Shown piece after piece: positions 3,236 to 8,105 of a DNA stretch of 16,870 nucleotides. This DNA comes from Anaerolineales bacterium UBA7227 (GTDB lineage: Bacteria; Chloroflexota; Anaerolineae; Anaerolineales; Villigracilaceae): positions 1 through 16,870 of the forward strand of contig DKTP01000172.1 in NCBI GenBank assembly GCA_002473085.1. The letters are read 5' to 3'. The notes under the pieces were generated by a model. It saw only the letters and a program-made list of their open reading frames with translations, was not told the DNA's origin and searched no databases. Within the stretch, counting starts at the first letter, position 1; every line of letters begins with the position of its first letter. A program made the translations under genes and the position numbers.

Positions 3236-4381
3236 ATGATCTATCTTGACTACGCCGCGACGACTCCCGTGGATGTGCGCGTCCTCGACGCGATGACGCC
3301 CTACTTCGCCGATTCGTTCGGGAACCCGTCCTCGGTCCACCGCTTCGGACAGCGCGCCGAAGCCGCGGTCGAATCCGCCCGTGAGACGGTCGCGTCTGCC
3401 CTCCACTGCCGCCCCGACGAGATCATCTTCACCTCCTGCGGCTCCGAATCCGATAACCTGGCTTTCCGCGGCGCGATGATGTTCGGCCTGCAAAATGACC
3501 GCCCCTGGCTGTTGACCTCCCGCGCCGAGCATCACGCCGTCAGCAAGACCGCCGAACAACTGGAGAAATATTACGGCGTTCAGGTCGAGTGGCTGCCCGT
3601 GGACGCGCATGGTATGGTCACGCCAGAGACGATGCGCCGCGCTGTCTGTGATGGGACCGCGCTGGCTTCCGTCATGCTCGCCAATAACGAGATCGGGACG
3701 ATCAACCCGGTCGCCGAACTCGCGTCCATCTGCCGCGAGCGCGGCATTCTCTTCCACACCGACGCGGTGCAGGCCGCCGCCTATCTCGATGTGGATGTGA
3801 CCAGACTCGGCGTGGACATGCTCTCGCTCGGCGGTCACAAATTCTACGGACCGAAAGGCGTCGGCGCGCTGTACGTCAAAAAAGGGACGCGGCTCGTCCC
3901 GCACACCACGGGCGGCGGCCAGGAGTTCGGCCTGCGCGCCGGGACGCAGAACGTGCCGTACATCGTCGGCTTTGCGGAGGCGCTTCGTCTCGCCGCGGAA
4001 GAGCGCGAGGAACGCGTCGCCCACGTCCAGCCGCTGCGCGATCAGGTCATCGGCCGCGTCCTCGAAGAAATTCCCGACGCGCAGTTGACGGGTCATCCCG
4101 AAAACCGCCTGCCGAATCACGCCTCCTTCGTCTTCAAAGACGCGGACGGCAACCTGCTTTTGCAGCTGCTCGACGCGGCGGGCTTCGCCTGCTCCTCCGG
4201 CTCGGCCTGCAAAACGGGAAATCCCGAACCGAGCGAAGTCATTGCCGCCCTCGGTCTCTCCCGCGATTGGGCGCTCGGCTCGCTGCGAATCACCCTCGGC
4301 AAAGATTCCACGCCTGAGCAAATCAACTCCTTTCTCAACCTCTTGCCCTCCCTCGTCGAAAAATCCCGCGCCCTGCGCTGA
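3236..4381 (+). CDS. Cysteine desulfurase, class I NifS/IscS family, paired with MnmA
   Basis: A 381-residue PLP enzyme that takes sulfur from L-cysteine, leaving alanine and an enzyme persulfide. YLDYAATTP opens the protein. EHH at 98-100 supplies the His that stacks on PLP (H99). TDAVQ (175-179) holds the Asp and Gln that contact the cofactor. SLGGHKFYGPKG contains the Schiff-base lysine (K202). The catalytic cysteine is C325 in SSGSAC. The length is normal. It is followed directly by mnmA on the same strand, the arrangement of Bacillus YrvO-MnmA, where a dedicated desulfurase passes sulfur straight to the thiolase. I therefore infer tRNA thiolation as its main job; general Fe-S assembly is the alternative, since no iscU, sufU or iscR is seen nearby. 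The start is supported by the adjoining promoter and the MIYLDYAATTP opening; there is no Shine-Dalgarno site. Confidence 0.93.
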   Translation: MIYLDYAATTPVDVRVLDAMTPYFADSFGNPSSVHRFGQRAEAAVESARETVASALHCRPDEIIFTSCGSESDNLAFRGAMMFGLQNDRPWLLTSRAEHHAVSKTAEQLEKYYGVQVEWLPVDAHGMVTPETMRRAVCDGTALASVMLANNEIGTINPVAELASICRERGILFHTDAVQAAAYLDVDVTRLGVDMLSLGGHKFYGPKGVGALYVKKGTRLVPHTTGGGQEFGLRAGTQNVPYIVGFAEALRLAAEEREERVAHVQPLRDQVIGRVLEEIPDAQLTGHPENRLPNHASFVFKDADGNLLLQLLDAAGFACSSGSACKTGNPEPSEVIAALGLSRDWALGSLRITLGKDSTPEQINSFLNLLPSLVEKSRALR

Positions 4382-4457
4382 ATCACCAATCACCAATTAC
4401 CGCTCTCTACTCTCTGCTCTCTGTTCTCTATTCTCTACTCTCTTTTCTCTACCTCTT
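4381..4457 (+). repeat. Eleven-unit heptameric tandem repeat filling the gap before mnmA
   Basis: From the last base of the cysteine desulfurase stop codon to three bases before the mnmA ATG, the sequence divides into eleven 7-bp units. They are AATCACC, AATCACC, AATTACC, then GCTCTCT, ACTCTCT, GCTCTCT, GTTCTCT, ATTCTCT, ACTCTCT, TTTCTCT and a decayed ACCTCTT. There are two unit families in one unbroken 7-bp register. The second part is almost purely pyrimidine on the plus strand and so leaves no Shine-Dalgarno sequence for mnmA. Confidence 0.85.
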
Positions 4458-4460
4458 CCC

Positions 4461-5522
4461 ATGCCCAAAATCGCCGTCGCCATGTCTGGCGGAGTGGACT
4501 CCTCCGTCGCCGCGGCCCTGCTCAAACAGCAGGGCTATGACGTCATCGGGATGATGCTTCGGCTCTGGTCCGAGCCGGGGAAGGAAGACTCCAACCGCTG
4601 CTGCACGCCCGATTCGATGGCGCAGGCGAGACGCGTCGCCGCAAAGCTGGACATCCCCTTTTACGTGGTGGACGCGAAAAACGTCTTCCGCGAGACGGTC
4701 GTCCAGTACTTTTTGGACGGGTACGCGCGCGGCGAGACGCCCAATCCCTGCCTGCTCTGCAACCGGCAGATCCGCTGGACGTTCCTGCTCGACCACGCGC
4801 TGGCTCTCGGCGCGGACTTCATGGCGACGGGACATTACGCGCGGACGACGAAAGACGAAAGCGGAACGGTAAAATTGCTGCGGGCGGTGGACGAATCGAA
4901 AGATCAGTCGTACATCCTGCACGTGTTGACGCAGGAGAAGTTGCAGCGCGCCTTGTTCCCGGTGGGCGACTATCCCAAAGCCGAAATCCGCAGGATCGCC
5001 GAAACGTTTGGCCTGCCCACCGCTTCCCGCGCGGACAGCCAGGACCTGTGTTTCCTCGCGGGCGAAGACTACCGCGATTTCCTCGCGCGGAACGCGCCCG
5101 AAATCAACCAGCCGGGCAGCATCGAAACAACCGACGGACGGATCATCGGTCAACACACGGGACTCGCCAACTACACCATCGGCCAGCGCAAGGGACTCGG
5201 CCTCGCTTCGCCTGTTCCGCTTTTTGTCATTACGAAACACGCAGCACGCAATACGCTGGTAATCGGCACGGCAGATGCACTCGGATTCGCCAGTCTCACC
5301 GCCCGCGACGTCAACTGGGTGAGCGGGACTGCGCCGTCCGCGCCATTTCGCGCGCTGGTCAAGATCCGCTACACGGCGCGCGCCGTCCCTGCGGAGGTCG
5401 CGCCCGAAGACGGAAACCGCGTCCACGTCAAGTTCGACGCGCCCGCGCGGGATGTGACAGCGGGTCAGGCCGCGGTCTTCTACATCGGGGAGGAAGTCCT
5501 CGGCGGCGGAATCATCGTATAG
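4461..5522 (+). CDS. mnmA: tRNA-specific 2-thiouridylase MnmA
   Basis: A 353-residue cytoplasmic enzyme that adenylates the wobble uridine U34 of tRNA Lys, Glu and Gln and replaces its 2-oxygen with sulfur. The ATP-binding PP-loop is SGGVDS at 9-14. C100 in LLCN and C197 in DSQDLCF match the two catalytic cysteines of the family (Cys102 and Cys199 in E. coli). ATGHYAR (122-128) and GQHTGLANYTIGQRKGLG (230-247) are further family blocks, and the C-terminal barrel domain is complete. Residue 97 is Cys, giving PNPCLLCN where E. coli has PNPD. The frame stays open upstream to 4242, but that part overlaps the desulfurase gene and the repeats; MPKIAVAMSGG is the natural N-terminus. The sulfur donor is probably the adjacent desulfurase. 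No Shine-Dalgarno site precedes the ATG. Confidence 0.95.
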   Translation: MPKIAVAMSGGVDSSVAAALLKQQGYDVIGMMLRLWSEPGKEDSNRCCTPDSMAQARRVAAKLDIPFYVVDAKNVFRETVVQYFLDGYARGETPNPCLLCNRQIRWTFLLDHALALGADFMATGHYARTTKDESGTVKLLRAVDESKDQSYILHVLTQEKLQRALFPVGDYPKAEIRRIAETFGLPTASRADSQDLCFLAGEDYRDFLARNAPEINQPGSIETTDGRIIGQHTGLANYTIGQRKGLGLASPVPLFVITKHAARNTLVIGTADALGFASLTARDVNWVSGTAPSAPFRALVKIRYTARAVPAEVAPEDGNRVHVKFDAPARDVTAGQAAVFYIGEEVLGGGIIV

Positions 5523-5534
5523 TCGCTGCGTGTA

Positions 5535-5686
5535 GCCAGAATAACAGACGACTCTACCTTGCAAAATACTTTCATGGATTATGGCCAAATTTCGCAATAT
5601 GCGCTACGCAGCCAGAATAACGCGCCCCATCATTTGGCAACAGACCTTTATGGATTACAGCCAAGTTGCGCCATACATTACGCGGT
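5535..5686. repeat. Two imperfect 76-bp direct repeats with hairpin potential
   Basis: Copy one is 5535-5610 and copy two 5611-5686, at an exact 76-bp offset and without gaps. They agree at roughly 48 of 76 positions, clustered in GCCAGAATAAC (11 of 11 bases) and in the middle block around ATGGATTA and GCCAA. The bases before copy one (GCTGCGTGTA) also resemble those before copy two (GCTACGCA). Each copy can fold: TTGCAAAAT (5559-5567) with ATTTCGCAA (5589-5597) pairs at 8 of 9, and in copy two TGGCAAC pairs with GTTGCGCCA. The offset is not a multiple of three and the frames here show no conserved protein, so it looks like noncoding duplicated sequence. Confidence 0.65.
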
Positions 5687-5688
5687 TG

Positions 5689-5723
5689 GAATCACAATCT
5701 CTAATCTCCAATCTCCAATCTCC
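5689..5723 (+). repeat. Five-unit heptameric tandem repeat upstream of the S9 peptidase
   Basis: Units of exactly 7 bp: GAATCAC, AATCTCT, AATCTCC, AATCTCC, AATCTCC. It directly follows the 76-bp duplication and ends eight bases before the TGA-TAAGAT promoter candidate. The unit resembles the AATCACC units that start the array before mnmA. Confidence 0.8.
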
Positions 5724-5731
5724 CCGTGTAG

Positions 5732-5761
5732 TGATAAGATAACCCTACTTTCAAATGGAGG
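5732..5761 (+). promoter_or_regulatory. Candidate extended -10 and Shine-Dalgarno of the S9 peptidase
   Basis: TGATAAGAT (5732-5740) is a TGn-extended -10-like element, 4 of 6 to TATAAT, which predicts a start near 5747. GGAGG at 5757-5761 then precedes the ATG at 5767 by five bases. An earlier in-frame ATG at 5755 overlaps the GGAGG and would have almost no leader, so 5767 is preferred as the start. No -35 is evident because the heptamer array occupies that place. Confidence 0.45.
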
Positions 5762-5766
5762 CTCCC

Positions 5767-7677
5767 ATGACCCCGCGCGTCGAATCGTTCATGTCCGCTC
5801 GTCTTTTTGTCGTCCCGCAGTATGAAAGGGGACGGATATATTTTCTCAGCAACCTCTCTGGGCACTTGAGCCTGTACGGCATGTATTACGGCGGAAGCGT
5901 CCCTGAGCCGTTGCTGCCGCCGCAGATCGCGTTGCAAAATCCGCACCTGATCGGCGGACGTTCGTTTTACGTCTTTCCCGACCTCGATAAAATTCTGGTA
6001 ATGATTGACAGGGACGGCGACGAGAACTACCAGCCCATGCTCATCCCGATCGGTGGCGGATTCCCCGAACCCGCCTTCGACAATTTCTTCGCCAGTTACC
6101 GCGTCCATTTGGGCGCGTGCGACAAAGAGAAGAGCATCGTCTATTTTCTGGCGGAGCGACGCGACAAACCGATGGAGGAGACCTATCGCGCCAATTTGAA
6201 GACGGGCAAACTGACCAAGATCGCCGAGAGCGAATTTGGTTTGGGCGTCGAAGCCCATTCGGCCGACCACAGAAAATTGATTCTAGGATCGGGCTACGAG
6301 ACGGGGGATAACGTCATGTTCCTCTGGCGGGACGGCAAAAAGACCGTTCTCTATGGCAAGCCCATCGAAGAACGCGCCGCGGGCGAAAAGGTCCCGCTGA
6401 ACGGGCTGATCGGCGGCGCGTTTTCTCCTAGCGAGAAGGGCGTCGTTGTCGTCTCTGCCGTGTTCGACGATGCTTTCGCCCTCGGCTACATTGATTTGAA
6501 AAAACCTGGCGTAATTCAGCCCGTCAAAATGAAAGGCTTGATTCATACGGGCGTCGGCGAGATGAATGGTATCGCCCACCTCGTCGGGAATCGCTACCTT
6601 ATTGAGTACAACATTGACGGATGTTCCTGGGTCTACGAAACGACCTTCAGCGAAGCGCGCCTGACCATGACGGTCAGGCATGAACTGGTGGGGGCCGCGC
6701 CGCTCGACGGCGGGACGCTCGAACACATTGACTATAACAAGGAAGAAGATCTCTTCGCGCTGTCCTTCTCCACGGCCACCTCGCCGACGCAGATTTACAC
6801 CATCGAAGATCGGCTTCGCAACCAGTACGTCCAGCACACCAGCGAGAAGGTGCTGGGGATTCCCGCGCAGAATCTTTCGGCGGGTGAAGACGCGTCCTTT
6901 GTCTCCTTCGACGGGCTGCGCGTTTCGGCGCGTCTCTACCTGCCCGCGAAATCCCTGGGATTTAAGGGACCGCGCCCCCTCGTCTATTACATCCACGGCG
7001 GGCCGCAGGGACAGGAGCGTCCCGACTTCGCCTGGTTCTCGATGCCGTTGATCCAATTCCTGACCCTGCGCGGGTTCGCGGTCTTCGTCCCGAACGTGCG
7101 CGGCTCGACCGGCTACGGTCTTTCCTACGTCAAACACGTGGACCGCGACTGGGGCGGCAAGGACAGGCTCGACCACGTCCACGCGATGACGAAGGTCCTG
7201 CCCAAAGATAAGCGTCTCGACGTGAAGCGCGCCGCTGTGGTGGGACGTTCCTACGGCGGATACATGACCCTCATGCAGGCCGCCATGCATACCAACCTAT
7301 GGAAAGCCGCCTGCGATATGTTCGGTCCCTACGACCTGTTGACCTTCCTTGACCGCATCCCGCAGACGTGGAAACCGTATTTCAAGATCGCGCTGGGCGA
7401 TCCCGAAAATCCAGAGGAGAAAAAATTCCTCGTCGAGCGTTCCCCGAAGACCCATCTGCCGAAGATGAAATGTCCGATGCTCGTCATTCAGGGCCGCAAC
7501 GACCCGCGCGTCGTCGCGGCCGAGTCGGAAGACCTGGTGAAGCAACTTAAAGCGCAGGGCAAGGACATCGAACTCCTGCTCTTTGAAGACGAAGGCCACG
7601 ACGTGCTGAAATACGAAAACCGCGTGATCTGCTACAACGCCATCGTTGACTTCTTCGCAAAGCGCCTCAAGCCGTAG
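5767..7677 (+). CDS. S9 family (prolyl oligopeptidase-type) serine peptidase
   Basis: A 636-residue two-domain enzyme. Residues about 1-370 form strand-rich repeats compatible with the beta-propeller that gates substrate entry in this family. Residues about 375-636 are an alpha/beta-hydrolase domain: YIHGGPQG with the oxyanion HGGP (410-413), PNVRGSTGYG, GRSYGG with the nucleophile Ser495, GRNDPR with Asp579, and DEGHD with His611. The triad is complete and correctly ordered. The pattern is closest to acylaminoacyl-peptidase/dipeptidyl-peptidase-like members that act on short peptides. No signal peptide or membrane segment is visible, so it should be cytoplasmic. The propeller part is divergent and I cannot name the subfamily or substrate. 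The start at 5767 follows GGAGG. It is probably transcribed alone, with repeat-containing spacers on both sides. Confidence 0.9.
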   Translation: MTPRVESFMSARLFVVPQYERGRIYFLSNLSGHLSLYGMYYGGSVPEPLLPPQIALQNPHLIGGRSFYVFPDLDKILVMIDRDGDENYQPMLIPIGGGFPEPAFDNFFASYRVHLGACDKEKSIVYFLAERRDKPMEETYRANLKTGKLTKIAESEFGLGVEAHSADHRKLILGSGYETGDNVMFLWRDGKKTVLYGKPIEERAAGEKVPLNGLIGGAFSPSEKGVVVVSAVFDDAFALGYIDLKKPGVIQPVKMKGLIHTGVGEMNGIAHLVGNRYLIEYNIDGCSWVYETTFSEARLTMTVRHELVGAAPLDGGTLEHIDYNKEEDLFALSFSTATSPTQIYTIEDRLRNQYVQHTSEKVLGIPAQNLSAGEDASFVSFDGLRVSARLYLPAKSLGFKGPRPLVYYIHGGPQGQERPDFAWFSMPLIQFLTLRGFAVFVPNVRGSTGYGLSYVKHVDRDWGGKDRLDHVHAMTKVLPKDKRLDVKRAAVVGRSYGGYMTLMQAAMHTNLWKAACDMFGPYDLLTFLDRIPQTWKPYFKIALGDPENPEEKKFLVERSPKTHLPKMKCPMLVIQGRNDPRVVAAESEDLVKQLKAQGKDIELLLFEDEGHDVLKYENRVICYNAIVDFFAKRLKP

Positions 7678-7688
7678 TTCTTTCGTAC

Positions 7689-7741
7689 ACGGATTGCGCC
7701 GATTTGATAGATCTCACGGATTTTTTGAACCCGTGAAATCT
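7689..7741. repeat. Decayed CACGGATT hairpin repeat after the S9 peptidase
   Basis: CACGGATT occurs twice (7689-7696 and 7715-7722). The second copy starts within a strong inverted repeat: AGATCTCACGG (7709-7719) pairs with CCGTGAAATCT (7731-7741) at 10 of 11 positions around an 11-nt T-rich loop. CGTAATCC at 7752-7759 resembles the reverse complement of the first copy (GGATTGCG). From memory, ACACGGATT...AATCCGTGT hairpin repeats occur in spacers of many environmental bacteria, and this looks like a degenerate copy. It lacks a T-run after the stem and is not a typical intrinsic terminator, though as a 3' hairpin it could stabilise the peptidase mRNA. Confidence 0.5.
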
Positions 7742-7771
7742 CTCGTCTCCGCGTAATCCACGCCTGCGTCG

Positions 7772-7813
7772 ACTGAACACTGAACACCGAACACTGATCA
7801 CTGAACACTGACC
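7772..7813 (+). repeat. Six-unit heptameric tandem repeat directly before the small membrane protein
   Basis: Six exact 7-bp units: ACTGAAC, ACTGAAC, ACCGAAC, ACTGATC, ACTGAAC, ACTGACC. The array ends four bases before the ATG at 7818 and so takes the place of a ribosome-binding site. The unit sequence is unrelated to the CTCTCT units before mnmA, but the period is the same. Confidence 0.85.
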
Positions 7814-7817
7814 ACCA

Positions 7818-8105
7818 ATGCCCATCCCATCCCTCCTCTTTGCTCTCCTGATCGCCCTCGGCCTCGGCGCGCTCTACCACCTCATCCGCGGCGGGGATTG
7901 GTCGCGCCTGCTGGCGTACCTCTTCATGTCCGCGCTGGGATTCGCGGCCGGTCATTTGTTCGGGCTTTGGCGCGGCTGGGAGTTCTTCGTGGTCGGCCCG
8001 TTCAATCTCGGAATGGAACTCGTCGGCGCGCTGGCCTTCCTCGCGTTGACGGACTGGTTGCTCCACCTGCCGCCGCAGACGGACGATGGCGGCGGAAATC
8101 GCTGA
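7818..8105 (+). CDS. Small three-helix membrane protein, unknown function
   Basis: A 95-residue hydrophobic protein with three probable membrane helices at about 4-21, 31-50 and 63-83, joined by short loops (HLIRGGDWSR and WRGWEF) and ending in a polar PQTDDGGGNR tail. I do not recognise a family. Placement of Arg residues in the first loop suggests that loop is cytoplasmic. It lies 29 bp before the ABC permease on the same strand and may be co-transcribed with it, but nothing in it resembles a transporter subunit. No Shine-Dalgarno sequence precedes the ATG because the heptamer array comes right up to it. The hydrophobic pattern and lack of a competing frame make it likely real. Confidence 0.65.
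   Translation: MPIPSLLFALLIALGLGALYHLIRGGDWSRLLAYLFMSALGFAAGHLFGLWRGWEFFVVGPFNLGMELVGALAFLALTDWLLHLPPQTDDGGGNR

Follow-up and report, generated by a model that had tools for sequence, protein, structure and literature searches.

The window analysed here, 16,870 nucleotides of contig DKTP01000172.1 from Anaerolineales bacterium UBA7227 (Chloroflexota), contains three tandem arrays of seven-base units (heptamer arrays), all of them in spacers in front of plus-strand genes (Table 1). The arrays had been noticed in a preliminary description made from the letters alone, and their places were confirmed by Tandem Repeats Finder (TRF) together with a lag-run scan of periods 2-40, which detected only period 7 and its multiples 14, 21 and 28 in the window. 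Such repeats are real, dynamic and widely distributed, and they match a class that is known but poorly understood. The lag-7 match fractions of the three array spacers were 0.72, 0.33 and 0.37. The first base of array 1 is also the last of the iscS-like stop codon, the array ends 4 nt before the start codon of mnmA, and array 3 ends 2 nt before the start codon of the gene for the 95-aa protein.

A -10-like motif, TAAGAT (5735-5740), is located 11 nt beyond the end of array 2. The sequence TGATAAGAT, a putative extended -10 element of the S9 peptidase gene, also occurs in the orthologous spacer in both G003 and L051, and in L061 it lies upstream of the S9 gene. Judging from these motifs, array 2 would probably overlie the -35 region of the S9 peptidase gene.

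Table 1. Arrays, genes and promoter element in the part of the window around the heptamer repeats.
Feature	Position	Strand	Composition or basis
Array 1	4381..4456	+	three AATCACC-type units, then about eight ACTCTCT-type units; TRF rows 4381-4401 and 4403-4456
Array 2	5689..5723	+	about five AATCTCC-type units; TRF row 5695-5723
Array 3	7772..7815	+	about six ACTGAAC-type units; TRF row 7772-7815
Putative extended -10 element of the S9 peptidase gene	5732..5740	+	inferred from sequence
Class-V aminotransferase (iscS-like cysteine desulfurase), upstream of array 1	3236..4381	+	PF00266, E 4.2e-81
mnmA (tRNA 2-thiouridylase), downstream of array 1	4461..5522	+	PF03054, PF20258, PF20259
S9-family prolyl oligopeptidase, downstream of array 2	5755..7677	+	PF00326, E 8.7e-41
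Conserved 95-aa protein, downstream of array 3	7818..8105	+	matches in genus mates and named relatives

The genome of the window (G000; 3.0 Mb in 182 contigs, 96.8% complete) was compared with another genome of its species (G007; 3.7 Mb in 4 contigs), to which the window aligned along its full length with 98.3% identity, and with genus mates G001-G006. Among its best matches, the MnmA protein of the window showed 71-80% identity to named Chloroflexi/Anaerolineales genomes. The 95-aa protein had no Pfam match, and no RNA family was found in the window at Rfam gathering scores. In G005 the orthologous iscS-mnmA spacer carries a composite array that is built like array 1 from different units, and in G004 a GTACCCC/GTAACTC array lies behind mnmA.

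The same iscS-mnmA spacer contains a small open reading frame of about 125 codons between inverted ends in G002 (L143), L048, L052 and L055, which we take to resemble a GxxExxY protein, and in L056 a hairpin-like stretch only. This spacer may be an insertion-prone site. Behind mnmA, TGCGTGTAGCCAGAATA (5527-5543) recurs at the equivalent place in G005, G003 and G001 and partly in L047; some copies in the genus mates have one base changed, no Rfam match was obtained at the gathering score, and a degenerate second copy is located at about 5601-5619.

Period 7 and the common heptamer word

In 20 contigs of G000 other than the window (215,131 bases) we counted 11 strong runs at period 7, compared to 0.1 in a third-order Markov null, and zero strong runs at periods 2-6 and 8-13; besides multiples of 7, a few longer periods (15, 18, 20, 30) occurred. 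A 900-kb grid of G007, excluding stretches L200-L202 that had been picked near known matches, yielded 30 runs at period 7 and 6 at period 8, and none of the other periods from 2 to 13 exceeded 3 runs; three replicates of the Markov null contained 0 period-7 runs. Including the three window arrays, G000 had 14 strong period-7 runs in 232 kb. The genus mates G003, G001 and G005 had 8 in 220 kb, 9 in 145 kb and 4 in 80 kb, respectively, and in 320 kb of G004 there were 22 strong runs at period 7 and 17 at period 8. No period-7 run was detected in 220 kb of G006. Among 80 named loci and six genus loci (1.39 Mb), period 7 was in front with 16 runs; period 8 had 6 and period 6 had 4. In G000 and most of the sampled genus mates, period 7 stands out from all other tandem-repeat periods between 2 and 13, and period 8 is the only other notable class in this range. 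The period-8 words of G004 take the form GTANACAN (L140, L219-L222, L257, L259, L261, L265 and L266).

The preliminary description had advised computing the lag-7 autocorrelation of all spacers. As a bulk signal this was not specific, given that lag 3 (z = 6.4) was stronger than lag 7 (z = 4.8) in G000 and that the lag-7 value of G007 was negative (z = -3.0). Discrete arrays, in contrast, were far above the Markov null: the period-7 signal resides in them and not in spacer sequence at large. Adjoining period-7 arrays in opposite or related orientation were seen in Desulfuromonadales (L104:10650-10738) and Selenomonadaceae (L111:1873-1952). Within G000, 3 of 19 distinct AATCTCC arrays (contigs C65, C112 and C118) are located no more than 50 bp from a contig end, with about 0.1 expected by hand computation; arrays may break short-read assembly or otherwise complicate it.

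Comparison of 114,854 non-redundant bases of G000 with G007 revealed 34 unique indels, 14 of them at least 4 bp long. Eight of these 14 were multiples of 7 (7 bp six times, 14 bp and 21 bp), all in heptamer context, while the remaining six measured 6, 11, 15, 18, 25 and 70 bp, those of 11 and 25 bp also touching arrays. Substitutions amounted to 2.6% in arrays and 1.2% outside. A comparison of unit numbers between close strains had likewise been proposed: in the window, arrays 1 and 3 are identical in the two genomes and array 2 has exactly one 7-bp unit more in G000 than in G007. At L039:9323 a fresh 7-bp duplication has given two copies, possibly the birth of an array. With period 7 dominating periods 2-13 and whole-unit indels dominating the longer strain indels, the original suggestion of a process that makes or keeps 7-bp repeats was supported.

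The suggestion that the arrays are not copies of one mobile repeat also held for this species, where no heterogeneous block of at least 21 bases was common to any pair of the 38 arrays of G007. With blocks of 21, 24 or 28 bases, there were 0 such pairs among the arrays of G007, the 15 of G000 and the 19 of G003; for G007, shuffling predicted 0.55 pairs. We found no evidence of block copying between loci in these three genomes, and dispersed copies of one sequence, as in miniature inverted-repeat transposable elements (MITE) or repetitive extragenic palindromes (REP), were rejected on the same grounds.

The units of different arrays are nevertheless related. Alignment of 53 arrays of the species by rotation and strand, with 20 random starts for the real set and 8 for each null set, resulted in the common word T-C-[AT]-C-[TC]-[GA]-[AC] with 4.32 bits of information, compared to 2.98 +/- 0.07 when columns were permuted within arrays. 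The samples of G000 and G007 partly overlap, and a few orthologous arrays were counted twice both here and in the placement counts below. In the common frame the window units read TCACCAA (AATCACC), TCTCTAC (ACTCTCT), TCTCCAA (AATCTCC) and ACACTGA (ACTGAAC). The preliminary view that the three arrays share only their period and have unrelated units was therefore not correct, since the words are variants of one degenerate heptamer. The commonest word was TCACTGA, with 17 units in 9 arrays. Neither TCACTGA nor the other commonest words, TCTCCAA and TCTCTGC, have a run of three G on either strand; a minority of words, such as TCTCCCG and TCCCCCG, have G runs of three or more. That the words are related although no blocks are shared speaks more for a common bias acting on repeated local origins, or for selection for words, than for copying.

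In the family to which the window belongs, a loose four-unit pattern of the word outnumbered its reversed control in 17 out of the 18 genomes sampled, whereas the reversed control prevailed about tenfold or more in six genomes of g49, a distant genus of the Chloroflexota. In 16 genomes outside the phylum, the ratio of pattern to control in whole-genome counts went in both directions (for example 7 to 33, 14 to 2, 13 to 23, 32 to 22). G006 had 0 forward matches and 1 control match. The heptamer word pattern is therefore clade-specific and not universal. A universal word across phyla was considered, as heptamers from the literature seemed to rotate into the same form, and was rejected: 8 arrays from other Chloroflexota and similar loci gave 2.26 bits versus 2.08 permuted (sd 0.62), and 8 arrays from non-Chloroflexota loci 2.76 versus 2.01 (sd 0.59). 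Loss of mismatch repair as the cause was not supported either. A MutL match was present in 51/51 array-rich genomes and in 200/250 others, a comparison over 301 Chloroflexota genomes that is confounded by ancestry; the 51 genomes, with at least 20 matches of pattern plus control, were listed by hand.

Placement and orientation of the arrays

Array placement was determined in 1.9 Mb from six genomes (G006 and G002 were left out), with genes from a simple purpose-made gene finder that recovered the genes of the window, two of them with slightly different starts. Of 114 arrays, 64 lie between genes, 47 in predicted genes and 3 overlap a gene border. The earlier statement that no array is in coding sequence thus applies to the window but not beyond it. 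Translations and Pfam matches placed in-frame arrays in UvrA, Mfd, a radical SAM protein, an M20 peptidase, FemAB and a 2-oxoacid dehydrogenase acyltransferase, and in G004 also in an AMP-binding (acetyl-CoA synthetase-like) enzyme. Read by eye, the UvrA loop contains GAGAACA-type units in the species of the window and TCGAATA-type units in both G003 and G004; G001 and G006 are without an array there. In the Mfd loop, the species of the window has GTTGAAA/TTCAACC units, G004 GTCGAAA/TTCGACC units, G002 and G005 TTCATCC-type units and G003 GTTGAAC-type units; G001 has a partial form, and G006 no array. The Mfd gene is exactly 21 bp longer in G007 than in G000, with the frame kept.

Spacer counts were restricted to arrays with both neighbours, which excluded 3 of the 67 non-coding or overlapping arrays. 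Co-directional spacers, which make up 65% of the spacer bases, contained 53 of the 64 arrays counted. The C-rich strand was the sense strand in 39 of these and the antisense strand in 10 (p = 4e-5 for 39 versus 10), with 4 undecided. The window, picked for its arrays, was included with its three arrays, all sense; without it the ratio was 36 sense to 10 antisense. In arrays wholly within genes neither orientation was preferred (25 C-rich sense, 19 G-rich sense, 1 even), and the difference to the spacer arrays was significant at p = 0.025. Since the bias is limited to spacers, it argues for selection on spacers and against a strand-biased generator.

Orientation was also linked to position. Of the sense arrays, 22/39 end no more than 15 nt from the start codon, compared to 12.8 +/- 2.0 expected from uniform placement and to 1/14 of the other co-directional arrays (p = 0.0015), whereas 10/39 sense arrays and 10/14 of the others are within 15 nt of the upstream stop codon (p = 0.004). 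In the co-directional spacers of the six genomes, the G-rich strand tends to be antisense near starts and sense near stops. The preference for positions before start codons that the preliminary description had asked about does exist; neither a lack of period-7 enrichment nor chance-level placement, the outcomes it had set against its own idea, was observed, and array density per base was 6.4 times higher outside genes than inside.

This placement could mean that the arrays are functional 5' leaders, in which ribosomal protein S1, or some other RNA-binding protein, attaches to the C-rich, G-poor heptamers and initiation is permitted without a Shine-Dalgarno (SD) motif. The same was proposed for the TAACTGA repeats, for which the relevant part of PMC4679880 reports a like placement without a ribosome-binding site. 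An SD motif was present in 3 of 25 genes led by a C-rich array, compared to about half of the 983 others whose spacer was no shorter than 30 nt, and the mean folding energy of the leader was -2.0 versus -6.9 kcal/mol in a random 400 of the other genes. However, part of the low SD frequency follows from low G content, which by itself lowers the chance of an SD motif (3% versus 19% in shuffled windows). Moreover, many arrays are situated in predicted genes (47/114), and G006 keeps mnmA despite its near lack of pattern matches. At mnmA the motif is generally missing: among 29 relatives that lack an array, only 8 possess it. The array there thus did not necessarily take the place of an SD motif, and such a replacement was not supported. 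TATAAT occurs about 7-12 nt before the ATG of mnmA in six array-less named relatives (L047, L049, L050, L051, L053, L054), which suggests that mnmA transcripts are leaderless in these six. From the compared sequences, mnmA has been without an SD motif for longer, or in more lineages, than it has had the array. Because the motif is lacking without arrays too, arrays may have been tolerated at genes that can do without it and not installed as its replacement. As an account of the arrays in general, leader function appears rather unlikely to us.

Origin of the arrays

We favour, with a probability of about 0.58, the reading that the arrays are clade-specific heptamer microsatellites that 7-bp slippage creates and resizes where they stand, that spacers and protein loops tolerate, and whose orientation near start codons is subject to a selective filter. 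Replication slippage, or an equivalent 7-bp step of duplication and deletion, would add and remove whole units in place, and as the generator it would favour certain words. The places that tolerate arrays, and hence keep them, would be spacers and those loops or linkers of proteins in which the frame is preserved. In spacers, selection acting on the transcript would then filter the orientation, with C-rich, G-poor arrays tending to be left against start codons and G-rich ones after stops. For the window, the outcome would be a G-poor, weakly structured stretch right before mnmA and before the gene for the 95-aa protein, and a stretch that overlies the probable -35 region of the S9 peptidase gene. 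In our data period 7 dominates, whole units are gained and lost, blocks are not copied within the species, a common word exists, and the same sites hold different words in different species.

Several points weigh against slippage in place. In its plain form it explains neither why one word pattern prevails in the family and another elsewhere, nor why 220 kb of G006, from the same genus, are free of period-7 runs. Slippage was inferred from two genomes and not observed, and some of the eight indels in multiples of 7 bp fall in the same array (L018/L169) and are maybe not independent. In G004, 3 pairs of arrays shared a heterogeneous block, slightly above the 0.5-1.1 expected.

The words could instead be written by copying or templated addition, either by gene conversion between arrays or by a polymerase, telomerase-like or of another kind, that would extend DNA ends in measured steps of 7 or 8 nt. 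The words common to the whole family, the prominence of 7 and 8 alone among periods 2-13 and the different species words in the same protein loops would fit such a mechanism. Of the five opposite-strand array neighbours, four are convergent (G-rich left, C-rich right), as if both 3' ends of a break had been extended with G-rich sequence, and one is divergent, but 4 versus 1 pairs are too few for a conclusion. The lack of blocks shared between loci in G007, G000 and G003 argues against copying, and the 7-bp indels fit a change unit by unit; we regard a copying or templated origin as quite improbable.

Phase variation, with unit number switching the downstream gene, for instance by promoter spacing at array 2, was given a very small chance. 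The one-unit difference of array 2 between two genomes of the same species, beside a probable -10 element, is what contingency loci would show, but arrays 1 and 3 do not differ, the downstream genes encode MnmA, a peptidase and an unknown 95-aa protein and not surface structures, and the sole length change seen within a gene, in Mfd, preserves the frame. An action on transcription, by Rho loading on C-rich, G-poor RNA or by terminator-like hairpins from inverted pairs, would suit the base composition of the sense strand, the share of co-directional spacers (53/64 versus 65%) and the few inverted pairs present, but is the least probable of all, as the arrays adjoin start codons and not transcript ends and those in genes lack orientation bias.

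Relation to known heptamer repeats and meaning

The short tandemly repeated repetitive sequences (STRR) of cyanobacteria are tandem heptamer units, mainly intergenic, with words that are probably different from those described here. Mrazek et al. (2007), as told in parts of PMC4679880 and PMC4692102, described heptanucleotide long simple sequence repeats in prokaryotes. As in that class, period 7 is prominent here and most repeats are non-coding; 7-nt slippage was proposed there and a member from the same phylum was reported. A 7-nt unit that is over-represented compared to other lengths and to a null, and changes of whole units between strains, were both found in our genomes. Unlike those repeats, the arrays described here comprise many imperfect words of one pattern, occur in frame in conserved genes and are accompanied by a period-8 class in G004. 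A polymerase contact over about 7 nt (Mrazek 2007, via part of PMC4679880) was the sole mechanistic idea that we found for the preference for seven bases. The preliminary description knew of no such repeats in this kind of genome, but a (GATAGRA)n heptamer satellite family of Chloroflexus aurantiacus is in print (PMC6749651, in the part on this family).

The TAACTGA repeats of marine Beggiatoaceae, in the part of PMC4679880 that treats them, resemble our arrays in that heptamers abut start codons in forward orientation and an SD motif is mostly lacking. TCACTGA and TTACTGA occur here, and TAACTGA itself is absent from the 45 commonest of 85 listed words; one exact word dominates there, whereas a set of related words is found here. 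GGGNATC of Xanthomonas and GGGGA(C/T)T of Nostoc (passages of PMC4692102) are heptamers with the same orientation rule and convergent inverted pairs, and this rule was discussed there in terms of quadruplexes. These words have runs of three or four G and are quadruplex-capable, whereas most words here are not. Since most of our words lack a three-G run, a quadruplex is not needed for the orientation rule. Geobacter metallireducens, from what part of PMC2700814 describes, likewise has tandem heptamers (GGGACCG x4, MTYCTGA x5) at many intergenic and intragenic places, but as aligned dispersed families with a fixed number of units, unlike the variable, unaligned arrays found here.

The abundance of heptamers, their proximity to starts and the orientation rule are thus already published for other bacteria. 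Literature searches on tandem repeats of Chloroflexi and Anaerolineae found no published description of a multi-word heptamer pattern. New are the word pattern, common within the family and different between clades, the in-frame arrays whose words in a given protein loop vary from species to species, and the occurrence of the orientation rule in a third phylum, where the words are not of the quadruplex type. A bolder picture, which we regard as unlikely, is that each array-rich lineage has its own system writing lineage-specific words of exactly 7 nt (in some species also 8 nt) and filling the same spacers and protein loops repeatedly and independently, that the C-rich orientation is selected as an SD-less leader before start codons, and that all this is one general bacterial phenomenon together with the repeats of like geometry in Xanthomonas, Nostoc and Beggiatoaceae.

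Why bacterial tandem repeats prefer seven bases is an old question. The genus provides a comparison set for it, with G000, G007, G001 and G003 rich in period 7, G004 rich in periods 7 and 8, and G006 with none at period 7 in 220 kb. The loop arrays in UvrA and Mfd mean that conserved repair proteins tolerate drifting 7-bp repeats, and a comparison of replication and repair genes across the genus could point to the cause.

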